Origin: a virus
Strand: one strand, 5' to 3'
DNA: 22,806 nt
IMG/VR virus record: IMGVR_UViG_3300043539_000499
Coordinates: 1-22,806 of that record
Part shown: piece after piece, positions 1 to 20,106 of the stretch
Numbering within the stretch: position 1 is the stretch's first letter
Layout of the letters: each line of letters opens with the position of its first letter
Translations under genes and position numbers: made by a program
Notes under the pieces: model-generated
What the model saw: the letters and a program-made list of their open reading frames with translations, nothing else
The model's database searches: none
Told to the model about the DNA's origin: nothing

Positions 1-176
1 GTATCAGGACGATCAATTGTAGGATCTGTTTGTAGGCCACAAATTAGGTAATCACAGTGATTTTTAGCTTCACTCAACATAGCTATATGGCCGGCATGTA
101 GCATGTCAAACGTACTAAAAGTTATACCAATTTTCTTACCTTCTTGCTTGAGTTCTTTAATTTTATTAAAGATCAT
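1..176 (-). CDS. Nucleotidyltransferase (cytidylyltransferase-like), N-terminal part, cut by window edge
   Basis: Only the first 58 codons are in the window. Residues 16-30 read as a beta strand followed by FDMLHAGH, the HxGH signature of the cytidylyltransferase/nucleotidyltransferase superfamily (TagD, RfaE/HldE C-terminal domain, NMN adenylyltransferases), where both histidines contact the nucleotide triphosphate. It continues as a helix and a second strand ending in LICGLQTDP, again typical of TagD/HldE-like enzymes. The likely reaction is transfer of CMP or AMP to a phosphorylated sugar or polyol. The substrate cannot be told from this fragment. The ATG overlaps the clpS stop as ATGA, so translation is probably coupled to clpS and the gene is the last visible member of the S21-dnaK-hsp20-clpS transcript. 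The family call is secure; the exact substrate is unknown. Confidence 0.8.
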   Translation of the reverse strand, partial: MIFNKIKELKQEGKKIGITFSTFDMLHAGHIAMLSEAKNHCDYLICGLQTDPTIDRPD

Positions 177-478
177 GCGTCTGGCTCAAGTTTAATTACA
201 AGTGGAAAGCCATTTGCTCTAGCAAGTTGTGTTGCTTCAACACCTTTTTGTTCTGCCATTTCATATGGTAATACGATAACAGTGGCACTACCTTCTTCGT
301 GAATGGTTTGTGTAATTTCAATTGCTGTATCAACGGCAATATCAAATACCACACGCAAACTTTCAATAACAAATTCCATAGTTGTTACGTTGTCATTGAT
401 ATAAATGACCTTGTACATACTGGGTTCTTTGACTGATAAGTTTGGGGTTGTTTTAACTTTTGCAATTGCCTTGGCCAT
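173..478 (-). CDS. clpS: ClpS-like adaptor of the Clp protease (N-degron recognition)
   Basis: A 101-residue protein matching ClpS along its whole core. In the family ClpS binds N-terminal destabilising residues and hands the substrates to ClpA/ClpAP. Visible hallmarks are YKVIYINDNVTTMEF (residues 22-36), equivalent to YKVLLLNDDYTPMEF of bacterial ClpS, with the pocket residues Asn28, Asp29 and Met34. His60 in the TIHEEG segment corresponds to the alpha-amino-binding His66 of E. coli. The C-terminal end ANGFPLVIKLEP also matches. The third acidic pocket position is Asn30 instead of Asp, a conservative change. No ClpA or ClpP is seen in the window, so the protein presumably acts on the host protease. 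It lies downstream of hsp20 after a 65-bp gap with a hairpin and overlaps the next gene by ATGA. Confidence 0.9.
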   Translation of the reverse strand: MAKAIAKVKTTPNLSVKEPSMYKVIYINDNVTTMEFVIESLRVVFDIAVDTAIEITQTIHEEGSATVIVLPYEMAEQKGVEATQLARANGFPLVIKLEPDA

Positions 479-509
479 ATCTGCTCTCTTTATTTGTTTT
501 GTTGATGAT

Positions 510-529
510 GGGTGGAGTTTCCTCCACCC
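510..529 (-). terminator. Stem-loop between hsp20 and clpS
   Basis: A perfect 8-bp stem (GGGTGGAG / CTCCACCC) with a four-base loop. On the transcribed minus strand the loop is GAAA, a stable GNRA tetraloop. It sits 15 nt after the hsp20 stop and 31 nt before clpS. The bases after it on the minus strand are not T-rich, so it is more likely a weak or partial terminator, or an mRNA 3'-end stabiliser or processing site, than a full intrinsic terminator. Confidence 0.6.
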
Positions 530-543
530 TTATTACTATATTA

Positions 544-981
544 CTACTTTTCGAAGCTAATAGCAACCTTTTGTTTAACTGGCTCAGGTATAAATTGTTC
601 CAATTTAACAGTAAGTATGCCATTCTTAACGTGTGCAGTGCTGACTTCTACACCCTCTGCTAGCTTAATACGCTTAACAAAGTCACGTGCAGCAATACCA
701 CGGTGAATGTATTCTCCAGCACCTTCTGCGGTTTCACGGTTAGTACCTCGAATAACTAAATCACCGTCTTCAACTTCCACATCTAATTCACTTTCAGCAA
801 AACCTGCTACTGCTAATTCAATAGCATAGTTAGTTTCGTTTAGTTTAATCAGATTAAACGGCGGGTAACCACTATCCTTACCACGTTGCTCTAAGTGATG
901 CAGTTGTGCAAACAAATCATCGAAGCCAATAGCAAATTTATAGATGCTAGGGATATCAAGGGTTGTGTAAACTTGTTTCAT
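544..981 (-). CDS. Small heat-shock protein, IbpA/Hsp20 family
   Basis: A 145-residue holdase chaperone of the alpha-crystallin family, which binds unfolding proteins and passes them to DnaK/ClpB. The N-terminal segment PSIYKFAIGFDDLF (11-24) and the start of the crystallin domain (YPPFN at 39-43, then ELAVAGFAESELDVEV at 55-70) closely follow E. coli IbpA. The domain runs from about 40 to 130 and ends with NGILTVKLEQFIPE; a V-A-I tail (139-141) resembles the C-terminal IXI anchor. The start is secure: AAGGAGAG lies 7 nt upstream inside the dnaK end, and the dnaK stop and this ATG overlap by one base (TAATG), so the two are translationally coupled. Hsp20 genes are known in T4-like marine phages, but direct fusion to a dnaK operon is unusual. 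Confidence 0.95.
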   Translation of the reverse strand: MKQVYTTLDIPSIYKFAIGFDDLFAQLHHLEQRGKDSGYPPFNLIKLNETNYAIELAVAGFAESELDVEVEDGDLVIRGTNRETAEGAGEYIHRGIAARDFVKRIKLAEGVEVSTAHVKNGILTVKLEQFIPEPVKQKVAISFEK

Positions 982-2897
982 TATTTACTCTCCTTGTTAA
1001 CTTCTGTAAATTCAGCATCCACAACACCATCTTGTGCATCTGTTGCTGTCTGCTGACCAGGTTCAACTGTTGCTGACTCTTGTGCTTGTTTAGCTTGATA
1101 GATTGGTGCTACTGGTTCTGCTAGTTTAGTCATTGCTGTAGTAATTGCTTCTACATCATCACCCTTAATAGCTTCTTCAACTAGGGCAATAGCATCATTA
1201 ATTGCAGTATGTTGTTCAGCAGTTACCGAGTCACCAGCTTCTTCTACAGTTTTCTTAACATCGTGAACCTGTGCTTCAGCTTGGTTACGTGCATCAACTA
1301 ATTCACGCAATTTTTTATCTGCATCAGCATTAACTTCTGCGTCACGTACCATTGCATCAATTTCTTCTTCAGTTAGACCCGAGTTAGCTTTGATAGTAAT
1401 CTTGTTTTCTTTGCCAGTTGCTTTATCTTTAGCACTTACTTTTAAGATACCATTAGCATCAATGTCAAGAGTAATTTCAATTTGTGGTTGACCACGACGT
1501 TGTGGTTCAATACCTTCTAAATTAAACTGCCCAAGTACTTTATTGTCTTTGACAAACTCACGCTCACCCTGTGCTACCATAACAGTAACCGCTGGTTGAT
1601 TGTCTTCTGCTGTAGAGAATGTTTGGCTTGCTTTGGTTGGGATGGTTGTATTTTTCTTAATCAGCTTGGTCATAATACCACCCATTGTTTCAATACCCAA
1701 TGATAGTGGAGTTACGTCAAGTAACAATACATCAGTTTTGTCACCACCTAATACTGCACCCTGGATAGCCGCACCAACTGCTACAGCTTCGTCTGGGTTA
1801 ACGTCTTTACGTGGAGCTTTACCAAAGAATGCTTCAACAGCTTCTTGTACTTTAGGCATACGTGTTTGACCGCCGACTAGGATAACATCATCGATGTCGC
1901 TGACTGCAATACCAGAGTCTTTAACAGCAATTTTACATGGGTCAATTGAACGTTTAATTAAATCTTCAACTAAACTTTCAAACTTACTACGTGTTAGTTT
2001 AACTGACAAGTGTTTAGGACCGGTTGCATCAGCAGTGATGTAAGGTAAGTTTACATCTGTCTGTGTTGAACTTGACAATTCAATCTTAGCTTTTTCAGCT
2101 GATTCTTTAAGACGTTGTAGAGCAAGCATGTCTTGTTTTAAGTCAATGCCAGACTCTTTCTTAAACTCATCAACCAAGTATTCCATTACACGTTGGTCAA
2201 AGTCTTCACCGCCAAGGAATGTATCACCGTTGGTTGACAATACTTCAAATTGTTTTTCACCGTCGATGTCACTGATTTCAATAATACTGATATCAAATGT
2301 ACCACCACCTAGGTCATATACAGCAATCTTACGGTCTTTTTTATCACCTTTATCGCAACCAAATGCCAGTGCTGCCGCAGTTGGTTCGTTGATAATACGC
2401 AATACTTCTAGGCCTGCAATACGGCCAGCATCTTTAGTTGCTTGACGTTGACTATCGTTGAAGTAGGCTGGAACTGTGATAACTGCTTGAGTTACTTCAT
2501 AACCTAAATAGTCCTCTGCTGTCAATTTCATTTTGCGCAATACTTCTGCTGAAATTTGCGGAGGTGCTAGTTTGTTGCCATTTACTTCTACCCACGCATC
2601 ACCATTCTCATTTTTAACAATGGTATAAGGCATTAAGTCAATGTCTTTTTGTACTGCTGGTTCGTCAAACTTACGACCGATAAGTCGTTTGCTGGCGTAG
2701 ATTGTGTTTTTTGGATTAGTAACTGCTTGACGTTTGGCACTAGCACCTACAATAATTTCATCGCCATAGGCAACGATACTTGGTGTAGTACGAGCACCTT
2801 CGTTATTTTCAATTACACGTGATTTATTGTTTTCAAGAATGGCCACACAAGAGTTAGTGGTGCCTAGGTCAATACCTATGATTGTATTTTTGCTCAT
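981..2897 (-). CDS. dnaK: DnaK / Hsp70 molecular chaperone, full length
   Basis: A complete 638-residue DnaK, the same length as the E. coli protein. The ATPase domain has phosphate-1 GIDLGTTNS (8-16), Lys70, the [10 protein letters not shown] phosphate-2 loop with Thr200 (Thr199 in E. coli), and [10 protein letters not shown]. The interdomain linker [16 protein letters not shown], the substrate-binding beta domain ([14 protein letters not shown]) and the helical lid are present. The C-terminal tail ends in VVDAEFTEV, the bacterial form of the Hsp70 tail. The sequence is strongly proteobacterial (beta-like), implying acquisition from a host. No dnaJ or grpE is in the window, so host co-chaperones would be used. 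It is preceded by a sigma70-type promoter overlapping a late-promoter motif, a 5' leader of about 60 nt and an AAGGAG ribosome site. No inactivating change was seen. Confidence 0.98.
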
Positions 2898-3013: not shown

Positions 3014-3250
3014 TTAATAAAGTTTTGCTGGAAGTGTTTGACTGGATAATTTCTTTTTCCAACGTTGTTTAGCCGCAGCCGCTTTGCGTTTGCGTTTAAG
3101 TGTTGGTTTTTCATAAGACTCACGAGCACGTAGATCTAATATTAATCCACTGTCCTGTATGTTCTTTTTGAATTTGCGCATTGCCTGTTCTACGTTATCA
3201 TTTTTAACGTAAACTGTATTACCTCTTACCATTGAATCGTGTTGTGCCAT
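3014..3250 (-). CDS. rpsU: Ribosomal protein bS21 homologue
   Basis: A 78-residue basic protein aligned to bacterial bS21: NTVYVKNDNVEQAMRKFKKN (11-30) matches the VRENEPFDVALRRFKR region, SGLILDLRARESYEKPTLKRKRK matches the central arginine/lysine helix with the invariant YEKP, and the C-terminal LY ends as in E. coli. bS21 is the 30S protein next to the anti-Shine-Dalgarno end of 16S rRNA and is exchangeable on the ribosome. A phage copy could therefore replace the host one and bias initiation to phage mRNAs; that role is inferred. bS21 is among the ribosomal proteins known to be carried by phages. The start is supported by AAGGAAGA 8 nt upstream and a TATAAATA late promoter 27 nt upstream. 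Confidence 0.93.
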   Translation of the reverse strand: MAQHDSMVRGNTVYVKNDNVEQAMRKFKKNIQDSGLILDLRARESYEKPTLKRKRKAAAAKQRWKKKLSSQTLPAKLY

Positions 3251-12658: not shown

Positions 12659-12970
12659 CTAAGTTATAATACCACCAGCGCCAGCTGGCTCAATACCTGT
12701 TGTTGTTTGTATATAGTGGTTTACTAATGCGCCACTTGTTTGTGCATGTAGCATAACATGACGTCTATCAATGTGTATACTCTTATTTAACTCAGATGTA
12801 AATAGGCTCTGCATCAAGCCAATACCCTGTGGGCTTGGCACTACAATCATTGGTTTAGATACAATGAATTCATCGGCAGTTTCTTCTAATACCTTAGCAA
12901 TAACTTCATCACCATTTACTAATTTAAATGATACTAGTGTATCCTTGTCGTACTTATTAGTTACTAGCAC
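12659..12970 (-). CDS. Sm-like (LSm fold) protein of cyanophage type
   Basis: 103 residues. LVSFKLVNGDEVIAKVLEETADEFIVSKPMIVVPSPQGIG (residues 12-51) has the Sm1-like strand pattern: a strand, the N-G-D-E-V turn, a strand and then the bent strand D-E-F-I-V. The closing hydrophobic part follows after a longer insert. Sm-like proteins of putative cyanophage origin have been described structurally; they form rings and are suspected RNA-binding proteins. The gene overlaps the glutaredoxin gene by 14 bp. Its position next to nrd genes is reminiscent of T4-like phage genomes. The biological role is unknown. Confidence 0.7.
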   Translation of the reverse strand: MLVTNKYDKDTLVSFKLVNGDEVIAKVLEETADEFIVSKPMIVVPSPQGIGLMQSLFTSELNKSIHIDRRHVMLHAQTSGALVNHYIQTTTGIEPAGAGGIIT

Positions 12971-13220
12971 TTGTTTCCCCTAACATTTCGTTTAGTTGTT
13001 CATTGGTTAATTTTTGTAGGCCTTGATAGCCACCCGATACAAACAGTTTACCGTCTTGATAAATTTGTGGCACTGTACGATGCCCTTCACTCATAATAAA
13101 CTCGCGTGCGTCTAAATCTTCATCAATTTTAATTACTTCAAACGCAATCTTTTTCATTGTTAATAAATTCTTTGCTTGCTCACAGAATGGGCAAGAATCT
13201 TTTGAATACACAGTTAACAT
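12957..13220 (-). CDS. grxC: Glutaredoxin (GrxC type)
   Basis: 87 residues with the complete thioredoxin-fold glutaredoxin core. The active site is CPFC (Cys14 and Cys17 region, SKDSCPFCEQAK), followed by the cis-proline TVPQIY motif and the GG turn (SGGYQGL) that bind glutathione. It reduces disulfides using glutathione and is the expected electron donor for the ribonucleotide reductase encoded immediately upstream in the same operon. AAGGAGCC lies 5 nt before the ATG, and the gene starts 15 nt after nrdB. The C-terminus overlaps the Sm-like gene by 14 bp. It could alternatively use host thioredoxin reductase chemistry, but CPFC favours glutathione. Confidence 0.93.
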   Translation of the reverse strand: MLTVYSKDSCPFCEQAKNLLTMKKIAFEVIKIDEDLDAREFIMSEGHRTVPQIYQDGKLFVSGGYQGLQKLTNEQLNEMLGETSASN

Positions 13221-13234
13221 ATTGGCTCCTTTTA

Positions 13235-14335
13235 TTATAGTGTAGGTAATTCGTCGTAGTTCATCTCATCACTCATTACGCCAATTACGTAGTTAGTTGA
13301 TTCGGACTCTTGTAAGGCTGTTTGTTTTTTACTGGTATCACTGTGCTTATTAAACCAAGGAATCGGAGTTGATTTAGGCGCAGGGCTAGTGTAACGTATA
13401 CCGATTTGTTTTAGTGCATCTACGGCGGTATAATCAACAAAATCTTTCAAGATGTTAGCGTTTAAACCAATAACTGGGCCCATTTTGAACAAATAATCGG
13501 CCCATGCTTTCTCTTCGCAAATAACGTCTAGGTACATTTGATACACCTCAGCTTCGCATTCTTGTTTAATAGCAGCAAAGCGTGGATCTTCTTTAATCAC
13601 TTGATTGATCAAGAACGCTGTCCATTCTTTGTGTAGTAATTCATCTTGTAGAATTAAACTGATAATATTACCATTACCAATAAAGATACGATTTTCCACC
13701 ATAGCCAAACTTGTGGCAAATGATACCATAAAGCGGAATGCTTCTAGGCCGTAACTAGCATGTAGGGCTAGCCAAATAGCTTTAATATGTTCTGTTTCGC
13801 TAACTTTAATGCCGAGTTCAGCTTGACAGTTAATCACATGCAATTTGTCATAGTAGTTGCCAATGGTTGATGCCATGCTGACAATTTCTTGTGTATCATG
13901 AATTGTATTAAACACATCTTTAGGCACATTATAGATATTACGAATAATGTGGCTGTAGCTCTTACTGTGAATGTTAGTTTCAAAGAAGCTCCAATTACTA
14001 ATAAGTGCTTCTAGTTCTGGAATACTTACCACAGGACCAAACACCTGATTAGGTGCGCGGCCTTGCAGGCTGTCTAGGGCTGTTTGACGTAACAAGTTAC
14101 TAGTAAAGATATGTTTGACTGCATCGCTGGCACTTTTAAAATCATTGGCATCTTTACTTAGGCTAATCTCTTCTGGTTGCCAAAAGAAACCACGTGCTGT
14201 AGCTTCATAATCTGCAATCTTGTTATACTTAACTTCTTCAAAGCGTTGCACTGTTACTGGACCTGCCGGATCCAAAAACATCTTACGTTGTAGATAGTTA
14301 GTTGGCTTACTTAGGTTATACTGTGCTTTACTCAT
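13235..14335 (-). CDS. nrdB: Class Ia ribonucleoside-diphosphate reductase, small (beta) subunit
   Basis: 366 residues matching E. coli NrdB. Diiron ligands are Asp88 (TALDSLQGR), Glu119 and His123 (FFETNIHSKSYSH), Glu198 (GLEAFRF), Glu232 and His235 (QDELLH). Tyr127 corresponds to the radical-bearing Tyr122. The C-terminal tail has Tyr349 (TNYVIG), equivalent to Tyr356 in radical transfer, and ends in a NrdA-binding peptide (NYDELPTL). One oddity is that the first Glu and His ligands are separated by three residues (E-T-N-I-H) where E. coli has two (E-T-I-H). The gene begins immediately after the nrdA stop (TAA then ATG). Its product makes dNTPs for phage replication together with NrdA and the glutaredoxin. 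Confidence 0.97.
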   Translation of the reverse strand: MSKAQYNLSKPTNYLQRKMFLDPAGPVTVQRFEEVKYNKIADYEATARGFFWQPEEISLSKDANDFKSASDAVKHIFTSNLLRQTALDSLQGRAPNQVFGPVVSIPELEALISNWSFFETNIHSKSYSHIIRNIYNVPKDVFNTIHDTQEIVSMASTIGNYYDKLHVINCQAELGIKVSETEHIKAIWLALHASYGLEAFRFMVSFATSLAMVENRIFIGNGNIISLILQDELLHKEWTAFLINQVIKEDPRFAAIKQECEAEVYQMYLDVICEEKAWADYLFKMGPVIGLNANILKDFVDYTAVDALKQIGIRYTSPAPKSTPIPWFNKHSDTSKKQTALQESESTNYVIGVMSDEMNYDELPTL

Positions 14336-16654
14336 TTATAATTTGCAGCTTTCGCAGCCCTCTTCATCATCATAATCTATTGGTGCCATTGTTGGCGCTA
14401 CTTCTGCAACCATCTTACTACCTTGTTTATTAATCAAGCTATAGTAGAATGTTTTAATGCCCCATAGCTGTGCCTGCATTAAATTCTTAGCAATCAATGT
14501 AGTGGGCACCTTACGATCCGCAAAGTGTGCCGGATTGTAAAATGTGTTAGTGCTGATACTTTGATCCACATAGGCCGCTAGTACTGCCGCAGTTTTTAAG
14601 TATGCTGAACAATCTTTTTGTTCCCACATGAGTTGATATTTATTCTTTAACTTATGATATTCCGGAACAACCTGTGTGAATGAGCCAGCTTTTGATTCTT
14701 TAACTGAAATTAAACTCATAGGCATTTCAATACCATTGGTTGAGTTAATAACAACACTGCTTGACTCTACAGGAGCAATAGCCATTAAGGTAGCATTGCG
14801 TACACCATATGATCTCATATCACTACGTAGTTGTTCCCAATCAAGTTCTGGTGTAAAGTCAGCAAGTTCATTAACACCATCTGCACGATTCTCCCAAGGA
14901 AACTGTCCTTGACCGTAACGTGTTTTTGCAGAATCTAAACATGGGCCACGTTCTTTAGCAAGTTCGACTGTGGCTTCTGTTAAGTAGAATGCTTGATGTT
15001 CCATCCAACTTTTAACTTCTTGTAGGGCATCGCTATCGCCGTATTGTAAACTACGTTTAGCATGCCAATAGGCCAAGTTAGTAATACCAATACCCAAGGG
15101 TTGTAGCTCATCGTTTGACAATTGGCTTTGTATGCTTAAGAAATCTTGATAGTCCAAAATGTTACATAAACTACGTTGCAGGATACGGCAAGCACGACGC
15201 ATGTCTTCTGGATTGCGGAAAGCACCCCAATTTATACTACCAAGTGTACACAGGGCAATGCGACCAGTTGGATCATCTAAGCGTTTGAATGGCTTAGTGG
15301 GTAGTAAAATCTCGCAACACAGATTACTTTGATAGATGGTATGATATTCTGGATCAAATGGTCCTTGCTTCATAACGTTATCAATAAACACTAGATAGAT
15401 ACGACCTGTATCTGTACGTTCTTTTAAAATGCCGCCTTTAAATACTTCTTCGGCTGACATTGTTTTCTTACGTAGGTTTTTTTGTTTCTCGTACTTAACA
15501 TACAATTCTTCAAACAATTCAGTATTAGTGTAAAATGCTTCGTATAAGTCAGGTACTTCGTTAGGATCAAAGAATGTAATATTTTCTTTATTTTTAAAAC
15601 GACGCCAAAAGAAAGCACTTAGTACAACACCGTAGTCCATATGACGTACACGGGTTTCTTCTGTACCTTGATTGTTTTTAAGTACAATTAAATCATCAAA
15701 CTGATGATGCCAAATTGGGTAGAATACAGTTGCACTAGCATTACGTATGCCGCCTTGGCTACAACTACGTAAATCACCAAACCATTTTTTCAAGAACGGA
15801 ATCATACCCGTATGTTGTATTTCGCCGCCACGTATAGGTGATCCTAAACTACGTAAGCGACCGATTTCTAAACCAATGCCAGCACGTTTACTAGCATACT
15901 TGGCCATCATTTCACCTGATGCAAATATACTGTCTAGGTCGTCGTCCGCTTTGATCAATACACATGAACTAAATTGTTTAGTTGGTGTGCCTAAGCCGGC
16001 GAGAACAGGCGTTGCTAGTGTAAACAAACTGTCACTGGCGCAATTATAGTATTCTTTGATAAAACGCATACGTGCGCTACCAGGTTCTTCTTTATGGAAT
16101 ACTGTTGCTGCCGCGACTATATAACGTATCTGCGGAGTTTCGTAAATCTGTTTAGTAGCACGATTGCGTACTAGATATTTTTCAATTAGCTGTTCAATGG
16201 CCGCATATGAATATGTTTCGTCTTTGGTATGATCAACAAACGAATCCATTTTGTCCCATTCTTCTTCACTATACCACTCAAGTAGTTCATTAGTGTATAA
16301 GCCCGTTGCTACATTCTTTTTAACAATTTCGTATAGACGAGGAACTTCATAATCACCGTAGACGTCTTTGCGCAACATACTTAGACGTTGCTTACCTGCT
16401 ACGTATTGATAGTTTGTGTGCCCTATATCTGGATTGTGTTCGATGTCAATAAGATCAACAATAGCACGAAGTGTAATTTCGTCAATTTCACGTGTGCTAA
16501 TGCCATCATAAAAGTGTGGCTGTGCTTTGATTTCAATCATTGATTGACTTACGTCTGCGATTCCAGCACATACTTTTGTAATCTGGGCTTGCCATTTATC
16601 TACTGCTAACGGGGCGCGGCTACCGCTACGTTTTATTACTTGAATGATACTCAA
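14336..16654 (-). CDS. nrdA: Class Ia ribonucleoside-diphosphate reductase, large (alpha) subunit
   Basis: 772 residues, slightly longer than E. coli NrdA. An N-terminal ATP-cone (about 1-95, IQVIKRSGSRAPL) implies allosteric activity control. Catalytic residues are in place: Cys231 (SSCVL) and Cys469 (ALCTLGSINWG) as the redox pair, Asn444, Cys446 and Glu448 in SNLCCEIL as the radical-chemistry site, and Tyr737-Tyr738 (KTFYYS) on the radical path. The C-terminus EGCESCKL carries the CxxC that is re-reduced by glutaredoxin or thioredoxin. The start codon is TTG (16652-16654 on the minus strand), with GAGG about 9 nt upstream; no ATG exists in the first 38 codons, and the TTG start matches the family N-terminus. 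It opens the operon nrdA-nrdB-grx-Sm-like. Confidence 0.97.
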   Translation of the reverse strand: MSIIQVIKRSGSRAPLAVDKWQAQITKVCAGIADVSQSMIEIKAQPHFYDGISTREIDEITLRAIVDLIDIEHNPDIGHTNYQYVAGKQRLSMLRKDVYGDYEVPRLYEIVKKNVATGLYTNELLEWYSEEEWDKMDSFVDHTKDETYSYAAIEQLIEKYLVRNRATKQIYETPQIRYIVAAATVFHKEEPGSARMRFIKEYYNCASDSLFTLATPVLAGLGTPTKQFSSCVLIKADDDLDSIFASGEMMAKYASKRAGIGLEIGRLRSLGSPIRGGEIQHTGMIPFLKKWFGDLRSCSQGGIRNASATVFYPIWHHQFDDLIVLKNNQGTEETRVRHMDYGVVLSAFFWRRFKNKENITFFDPNEVPDLYEAFYTNTELFEELYVKYEKQKNLRKKTMSAEEVFKGGILKERTDTGRIYLVFIDNVMKQGPFDPEYHTIYQSNLCCEILLPTKPFKRLDDPTGRIALCTLGSINWGAFRNPEDMRRACRILQRSLCNILDYQDFLSIQSQLSNDELQPLGIGITNLAYWHAKRSLQYGDSDALQEVKSWMEHQAFYLTEATVELAKERGPCLDSAKTRYGQGQFPWENRADGVNELADFTPELDWEQLRSDMRSYGVRNATLMAIAPVESSSVVINSTNGIEMPMSLISVKESKAGSFTQVVPEYHKLKNKYQLMWEQKDCSAYLKTAAVLAAYVDQSISTNTFYNPAHFADRKVPTTLIAKNLMQAQLWGIKTFYYSLINKQGSKMVAEVAPTMAPIDYDDEEGCESCKL

Positions 16655-19505: not shown

Positions 19506-19658
19506 CTATATAGTAAATATTCTATCTAATACTGCTTGTTTTTGTTCGTTGGTATAATTGTACCACTCAACTACTTCATCGGTTGTTCTGTTACAACCTC
19601 GACATACATCATTGATTAATTGGCAAACGCCGACACATGGGCTTTCAACTTCTTCCAT
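19506..19658 (-). CDS. DUF1289-type small cysteine protein
   Basis: A complete 50-residue reading frame, small enough to be overlooked. It reads SPCVGVCQLINDVCRGCNRT at residues 6-25, matching the DUF1289 pattern S-P-C-x-x-x-C-x-(loop)-C-x-G-C-x-R-T, then DEVVEWYNYTNEQKQAVLDRI, the usual E-I-x-x-W and helix. Four cysteines (8, 12, 19, 22) could bind zinc or an iron-sulfur centre. The function of this family is not established. The ATG overlaps the iscU C-terminal fragment stop (TAATG), so it is translated together with IscU and forms an Fe-S-linked module with it. The family call is based on the motif. Confidence 0.8.
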   Translation of the reverse strand: MEEVESPCVGVCQLINDVCRGCNRTTDEVVEWYNYTNEQKQAVLDRIFTI

Positions 19659-19927
19659 TATTGTTTATTCCTGTAATCGTTTATTGCAGCTTTAATAGCA
19701 TCTTCTGCCAATACACTGCAATGTATTTTAACTGGCGGTAATGCAAGTTCTTCTGCTATTGCTGAATTTTTAATTGTTGATGCTTCATCTAAGGTCATAC
19801 CTTTAAGCAGTTCTGTTACTAGACTAGAACTAGCAATTGCTGAACCACATCCGTATGTTTTGAACTTTGCATCAATTATAATACCGTCTTCGACTTGAAT
19901 TTGTAACTTCATGACGTCGCCTGTCAT
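19658..19927 (-). CDS. iscU: IscU Fe-S scaffold, C-terminal part (separate reading frame)
   Basis: 89 residues from the ATG at 19927, beginning MTGDVMKLQIQ and continuing as the rest of IscU. It carries Asp4 (Asp39 of E. coli), Cys27 in KTYGCGSAIASSSLVTE (Cys63), the LPPVK chaperone-recognition motif at 63-67, and His69-Cys70 (His105-Cys106). Length and order match the family except that residues 1-37, including the Cys37 ligand, are encoded in the preceding frame. The start overlaps the stop of that frame as ATGA, the same coupling used by many gene pairs here. If made as two chains, they would have to assemble to rebuild the Fe-S site. An upstream TTG (19933) is an alternative start. It overlaps the DUF1289 start. 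Confidence 0.88.
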   Translation of the reverse strand: MTGDVMKLQIQVEDGIIIDAKFKTYGCGSAIASSSLVTELLKGMTLDEASTIKNSAIAEELALPPVKIHCSVLAEDAIKAAINDYRNKQ

Positions 19928-20040
19928 CCGCAAGCTGGGGCACCGACGATTCCGGTCCCAACTTGCGCATTCTCCTTGTCTAAAGATCCCACATTTCTAG
20001 GATTTTCGTAGTGATCTAACACAGCAGTTGAATATGCCAT
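19924..20040 (-). CDS. iscU: IscU Fe-S scaffold, N-terminal part (38 residues)
   Basis: This frame encodes the first 38 residues of IscU: MAYSTAVLDHYENPRNVGS at the start and GTGIVGAPACG at the end, where Cys37 is the first cluster ligand at exactly the E. coli position. It stops at TGA (19924-19926) directly after GGA. In intact iscU the next codon would be GAC, which is found 8 nt further on, in the frame of the C-terminal part. The two parts together make a complete IscU with nothing missing. The insert relative to an intact gene is 8 nt (ATGACAGG, or an equivalent register). A clear AGGAGAG ribosome site lies 4 nt before the ATG, and an overlapping early/late promoter pair precedes it. 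The 70 nt at 19911-19980 are about 60% G+C, far above the rest of the window. Confidence 0.88.
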   Translation of the reverse strand: MAYSTAVLDHYENPRNVGSLDKENAQVGTGIVGAPACG

Positions 20041-20067
20041 AATACTCTCCTATAATAGTATACTAAT

Positions 20068-20096
20068 ATACTATACTATTTATAGTGGTAGGTCAA
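20068..20096 (-). promoter_or_regulatory. Sigma70-type promoter of the iscU operon
   Basis: Minus strand TTGACC (20091-20096), 17-bp spacer, TAGTAT (20068-20073). The late consensus TATAAATA (20077-20084) lies inside the spacer, so early and late polymerases would compete for the same place. Confidence 0.72.
20077..20084 (-). promoter_or_regulatory. Late promoter TATAAATA of the iscU operon
   Basis: A perfect late consensus inside the spacer of the sigma70-type promoter; the leader to the iscU ATG is about 30 nt. Confidence 0.8.
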
Positions 20097-20106
20097 TGTG
20101 TTTTAG

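Follow-up and report, generated by a model that had tools for sequence, protein, structure and literature searches.

A viral iscU gene broken in its active-site loop

Can a viral iscU gene whose reading frame breaks off one residue past Cys37 still yield a single protein, and if so, by what route? The question is raised by the window, which is the whole stretch of DNA analyzed here (22,806 nucleotides; a 22.8-kb viral record). On its minus strand, the first iscU frame (20040..19924; MAYSTAVLDHYENPRNVGSLDKENAQVGTGIVGAPACG) starts at position 20040 behind an AGGAG ribosome site, runs for 38 codons to ...GAPACG, and ends with TGA at 19926-19924. The remainder of the gene, from Asp39 to a TAA stop codon (19658..19918, minus strand), lies in another frame (GDVMKLQIQV...NDYRNKQ), which overlaps the first at ATGA and ends at 19658. 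Both parts scored above the Pfam NifU_N cutoff (41.9 and 121.3 bits, respectively), so that IscU/NifU_N similarity extends over the two together. Reading of the frames and these profile matches confirmed the original prediction of a full IscU in two frames with its break in the active-site loop after Cys37, between Gly38 and Asp39.

On the minus strand, the junction comprises a proposed take-off codon, GGA (Gly38; 19927..19929), where the alleles described below likewise have GGN, a proposed untranslated gap, TGACA (19922..19926), which begins with the in-frame stop codon and is delimited by the sequence and by allele comparison, and a proposed landing codon, GGC (19919..19921). The intergenic stretch 5' of iscU (20041..20106, minus strand) contains the AGGAG site and a TATAAATA box that, judged by eye, resembles a T4 late promoter; it holds no endonuclease gene. 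No tRNA genes were found in the window. Other genes of the window (173-2897, 3014-3250, and 12957-16654) encode ClpS, Hsp20, a DnaK-like protein, ribosomal protein S21, glutaredoxin, and both ribonucleotide reductase chains.

The junction recurs at one codon in different frames

Among 80 close viral IscU relatives, 8 were split at exactly the codon affected in the window, and the remainder were intact. A complete scan of viral contigs specified the flanking codons only (any 2 to 32 nt between TGYGG and GAYGTNATG) and required neither a stop codon nor a second Gly codon. Together with loci collected earlier, it yielded 61 different iscU alleles carrying an insert. In all of them but L358 (60/61), a stop codon came right after the Gly of ACG and GGN stood right before Asp39, although the search did not force this arrangement. 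Disjoined frames with a stop right after the take-off codon, as in gene 60 of phage T4, are thus present in 60 of 61 alleles, with one protein as the presumed outcome. The stop codons were TGA (36 alleles), TAG (13), and TAA (11), and the gap between the glycine codons measured 3 nt (1 allele), 4 nt (29), 5 nt (21), 6 nt (8), or 7 nt (1). Since the frame of the second part varies with gap length, no single frameshift or readthrough event fits all alleles; a Gly-to-Gly hop fits them all, and its predicted product is always ACGDV.

Inclusion of alleles found through the endonuclease described below, under a slightly different counting rule, brought the number of distinct junctions to 67, i.e., 66 besides that of the window. 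In this set, three allele types have no stop codon in the A site after the take-off Gly codon. These are L436 (GGT A GGC; A site, AGG), L421 (GGT TGTT GGA), and L358 (GGT TGTT GAC), and each has the hairpin.

Take-off and landing codons agreed in their first two bases in 39 of 40 allele types, and the third base was identical in 15 of 40. Mismatches were GGT to GGA in 10 of the 40; in 3 others, one of which is that of the window, take-off from GGA would be followed by landing on GGC or GGT. Re-pairing would thus often rest on two of three bases. The commonest stop context was TGAC (13 of 40 allele types), which is a poor terminator context.

No such element was found in bacterial iscU, either in 369 genomes of one class or among the bacterial genome-contig matches listed. 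Within 2.6 Mb of loci, no convincing signature was present in other genes; the leftover matches lay in GC-rich, unrelated contigs, except for one ordinary gene end in L335. An iscU match labeled "Acinetobacter phage MD-2021a" (CAKLQH020000011.1, L371) proved to belong to a bacterial iscRSUA-hscBA-fdx operon. An intein at Cys37 was rejected as the invader, as the sole pattern match (L370) was due to chance. In-frame, intein-like inserts were seen between TYG and C in the second part of iscU in L338, L357, L345, and L438 (between HN and CGSAIA in the first three), and such an insert can co-occur with the bypass element in one allele.

A hairpin of coding sequence precedes the proposed take-off codon

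Directly 5' of the junction, the coding sequence of the window contains a conserved stem-loop (19929..19967, minus strand; −24.8 kcal/mol) built of an 11-bp outer stem, a 2-nt bulge, a 5-bp inner stem, and a 5-nt loop, with its 3' foot on the first base of the take-off codon. The stretch encodes QVGTGxVGAPAC or HVGTGxVGAPAC. All 25 distinct split versions first examined had the hairpin (−21.6 to −30.3 kcal/mol), with a mean z of −3.5 relative to synonymous recodings that preserve the peptide. For comparison, the same stretch in 69 intact alleles had a mean of −12.7 kcal/mol and a z of −0.24, and the hairpin was missing from these alleles with one clear exception. In L052, the hairpin occurs without gap or endonuclease, perhaps as a reversion. 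A 5' stem-loop adjoining the take-off site, as known from gene 60, is thus present; a take-off stem-loop containing the stop codon and gap is not, the gap being too short.

Across 33 versions, standard pairs filled 96.0% of pair cells, compared with 30 to 41% when the pairing was slid by 1 to 3 columns, and both sides had changed in 36 pair cells, versus 11.9 in shuffled data. The covariation score (0.234 versus 0.105 shuffled) was reached by none of 500 shuffles, although kinship among sequences can by itself push a score above shuffled data. We take the covariation as structure because paired wobble positions change in concert and the stretch stays unpaired in intact genes, which encode the same peptide. 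The wobble positions of codons 26 and 36, for example, form A-U, C-G, U-A, or G-C and are always paired in split alleles, compared with 22% in intact genes. The residue at the stem foot is always Gln or His in split alleles because the stem needs a C there, a base found at that place in 2 of 69 intact alleles; the stem has thus altered the protein. Silent sites within the hairpin were constrained (pS of 0.455 versus 0.700).

In TGAC alleles, including the window (19911-19926), UGAC can pair with GUCA around the landing codon by way of GTC for Val40. GTC was used in 10 of 18 TGAC allele types and in 0 of 27 others, and the pairing is not conserved family-wide. A search for conserved 3' structure was negative, as folding strength barely exceeded that of intact genes.

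Split alleles are linked to a putative endonuclease and move between gene backgrounds

Among split alleles with sufficient flanking sequence, 43 of 54 have an open reading frame (ORF) of ∼200 amino acids immediately upstream of iscU, compared with 2 of 69 intact alleles, a linkage that fits a cassette in which the endonuclease gene accompanies the bypass allele and is absent from ordinary ones. In a profile scan, every copy with readable downstream sequence was located upstream of iscU. The predicted protein has invariant Cys pairs (four Cys) and an HNH-like DH...N...NR signature. Its matches to Pfam HNH were weak and below the cutoff (E values of 0.02 to 0.035), a minority of members matched HNH families of PHROG (E values of 1e-4 to 7e-3), and a predicted structure (pLDDT of 73, partly confident) gave no useful match in the PDB.

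A second endonuclease type occupies the same slot upstream of iscU in L329, L368, and L033, with a truncated copy in L003/L092; the L329-type protein matched NUMOD3 above the cutoff (E value of 8.8e-8). In L033, a related endonuclease adjoins an ordinary iscU target, which counts against the cassette reading. With a full endonuclease in L329, a truncated remnant in L092, and none in the window, the three loci read as stages of a homing cycle.

Intact iscU genes beside an endonuclease had no hairpin (mean, −10.3), and most had altered target residues at GAPACGDVM (GAPSCGDVL, GSPACGDVM, GAPACGDVL, or GAPACGDLM). The hairpin thus goes with the gap, not with the endonuclease. An unusual active-site motif (GAPSCGDVL or GSPACGDVM) was seen in intact iscU beside the endonuclease in L036, L380, L384, L388, L397, L400, L443, and L451, and such residues are possibly another route to immunity.

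The hairpin block moves between divergent iscU genes. In 88 pairs of alleles with a near-identical hairpin but second parts more than 20% divergent, third-position identity was 0.92 to 0.99 within the block and about 0.5 to 0.8 outside. Mapped on a tree of second parts, the split or intact state changed 30 times, with at least 10 changes forced.

Programmed bypassing is the probable explanation of the split genes

The second parts of split and intact genes evolve alike, with medians of 0.134 (pN) and 0.820 (pS) in split alleles and 0.127 and 0.816, respectively, in intact ones; hence, the product of the split genes seems to be required. This protein could in principle consist of two chains, as the original prediction favored: translation would stop at TGA and restart either at the ATG of ATGA or farther on, at the ATG within GDVM, and the two peptides would assemble. 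The ATGA overlap is indeed found in the window and in relatives with a 5-nt gap, and the GDVM ATG is kept in most alleles, in some with GGAG shortly ahead. However, the overlap is not conserved: in relatives with gaps of 4, 6, or 7 nt, ATG is missing or out of frame there, which leaves the second frame no usable start at the overlap. Four DVL alleles (L413, L427, L430, and L433) even lack any in-frame ATG, GTG, or TTG from the gap as far as the YGC cysteine, the next catalytic Cys; for them, two chains are hard to maintain. On these grounds the coupled pair fails, and since two chains would neither need a conserved GGN before Asp39 nor give the first-frame hairpin a role, we regard this explanation as unlikely. 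Somewhat less credible still is that hairpin and gap act purely at the DNA level, in mobility or immunity, and that split iscU is a nonfunctional leftover. The linkage to the endonuclease and the spread by conversion speak for it; against it, purifying selection acts on the second part just as it does in intact genes, with no neutral signal in pN/pS, GGN is kept for both take-off and landing in 60 of 61 scanned alleles, and the hairpin tracks the gap, being absent from endonuclease-linked intact alleles.

Conventional frameshifting or stop readthrough, with extra residues inserted, could join the parts in the in-frame alleles with 6-nt and 3-nt gaps (L084, L132, L135, L186, and L355). Gaps of 4, 5, and 7 nt would each require a different shift, though, and no slippery heptamer was seen. 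Moreover, the intact alleles examined have no insertion between Gly38 and Asp39, and the Gly codon before Asp would be redundant. We therefore consider this route very improbable, and the −1 shift suggested for the window, which would add Arg-Met-Thr, finds no support, because gap lengths throw the second part into all three frames. The metagenomic source made an assembly or sequencing error conceivable, and an indel of this kind had been listed from the start. It is refuted by the recurrence of the junction, which is repeated letter for letter in five other contigs (L129, L137, L192, L330, and L331) and is found at the same position in 67 distinct forms from many contigs with covarying hairpins. 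Intact frames, which the original prediction had named as grounds for refutation, do exist among close relatives (L004 is 95% identical in the second part), but the split form itself is widespread and conserved and hence no private mutation.

The comparative evidence instead favors a reading that the original prediction had named as an alternative, namely bypassing from GGA to GGC with ACGDVMK as product, by the logic of T4 gene 60; the hairpin and the linked endonuclease had not been part of it. With a probability of roughly 0.8, short programmed ribosome bypassing (a stop-hop) makes one IscU from the two frames, and the allele belongs to a mobile cassette whose endonuclease has since been lost from the window. 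The hop and its efficiency are inferred. A ribosome with peptidyl-tRNA-Gly on GGA (Gly38) would meet TGA in the A site, the tRNA would release GGA, the mRNA would slip by 8 nt, and the tRNA would re-pair at GGC. Decoding would then restart at GAC (Asp39), so that IscU reads through the junction as ...GAPACGDVMK... with no interruption. As in T4 gene 60, the stem-loop immediately 5' of the take-off codon probably serves as a motor: by folding again once the ribosome has passed, it would draw the mRNA backward through the ribosome. On this analogy, the inner stem would already be exposed at take-off, and a shift of the mRNA by 6 to 10 nt could allow additional pairs. The lower stem would still be inside the ribosome at that moment, so the motor model accounts incompletely for its strict conservation.

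The gap and the recoded hairpin lie on the most conserved stretch of iscU, the presumed site of cleavage, where they most likely render the gene uncuttable by the putative HNH-like homing endonuclease whose gene precedes iscU in most relatives. Endonuclease and bypass allele would have spread jointly as a mobile cassette; in the window, the endonuclease would have been lost and the resistant allele left behind.

Comparison with known bypassing and homing systems

T4 gene 60 has so far been the one well-studied case of efficient bacterial bypassing, and no report of bypassing in iscU was found in the open-access literature searched. The element described here is probably a second, independent combination of homing endonuclease and bypass cassette, widespread in uncultured phages, with natural stop-hops of 3 to 7 nt, some of them in frame, and with a hairpin made entirely of recoded essential codons. 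Dozens of natural variants at one site, differing in stop codon, gap length, Gly codons, and compensated stems, allow comparison to test what governs take-off, the motor hairpin, and landing. They also suggest that genes whose most conserved codons are targeted by selfish endonucleases can escape through bypassing, and that this can happen repeatedly. "Broken" iscU genes of viral metagenomes are probably working genes overlooked by annotation.

Like T4 gene 60, iscU is a phage gene with a Gly take-off codon directly followed by a stop codon, a Gly landing codon, and a 5' stem-loop at the take-off site (PMC5009743, PMC3014915, PMC11194080). In gene 60, this stem-loop has been proposed to pull the mRNA as it refolds outside the exit channel for mRNA (PMC5009743, PMC11194080). 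As with T4 mobA and gene 60, an endonuclease gene of HNH type (for iscU, putatively so and in most relatives) lies upstream, the insert is proposed as protection, and other relatives of the gene are intact. In contrast to the 50-nt gap of gene 60, however, the iscU gap of 3 to 7 nt leaves no room for a take-off stem-loop within it; moreover, the 5' stem-loop consists of recoded conserved codons, and the landing match often comprises two of three bases. Gene 60 also has further elements that iscU lacks. The gene is iscU instead of a topoisomerase gene, the leader peptide is unrelated, and whereas the gene 60 element has been described as unique to T4, that of iscU has many natural variants and a wide spread.

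Synthetic stop-hops in Escherichia coli likewise involve a short hop of peptidyl-tRNA over a stop codon onto a similar codon, and the iscU alleles with 3- and 6-nt gaps would correspond to in-frame hops, of which no natural example was known to a 2016 review (PMC5009743). Unlike the synthetic cases, the iscU junction is natural, conserved, and equipped with a dedicated 5' hairpin. The byp elements of Magnusiomyces mitochondria share with it numerous short bypassed inserts that restore a protein and an imperfect match of take-off and landing sites, but they are mitochondrial, occur in many genes, and are reported to be independent of mRNA context, whereas the iscU element is confined to one gene and one site with a conserved hairpin (PMC5009743). 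Its gene arrangement recalls the free-standing seg and mob homing endonucleases of T-even phages, which are intergenic, in the same orientation, and beside their presumed target, with coconversion of the flanks (PMC2988022). The iscU-linked protein differs from these in its weak HNH match, and immunity to it would bring a stop codon inside the host gene and thereby require recoding.
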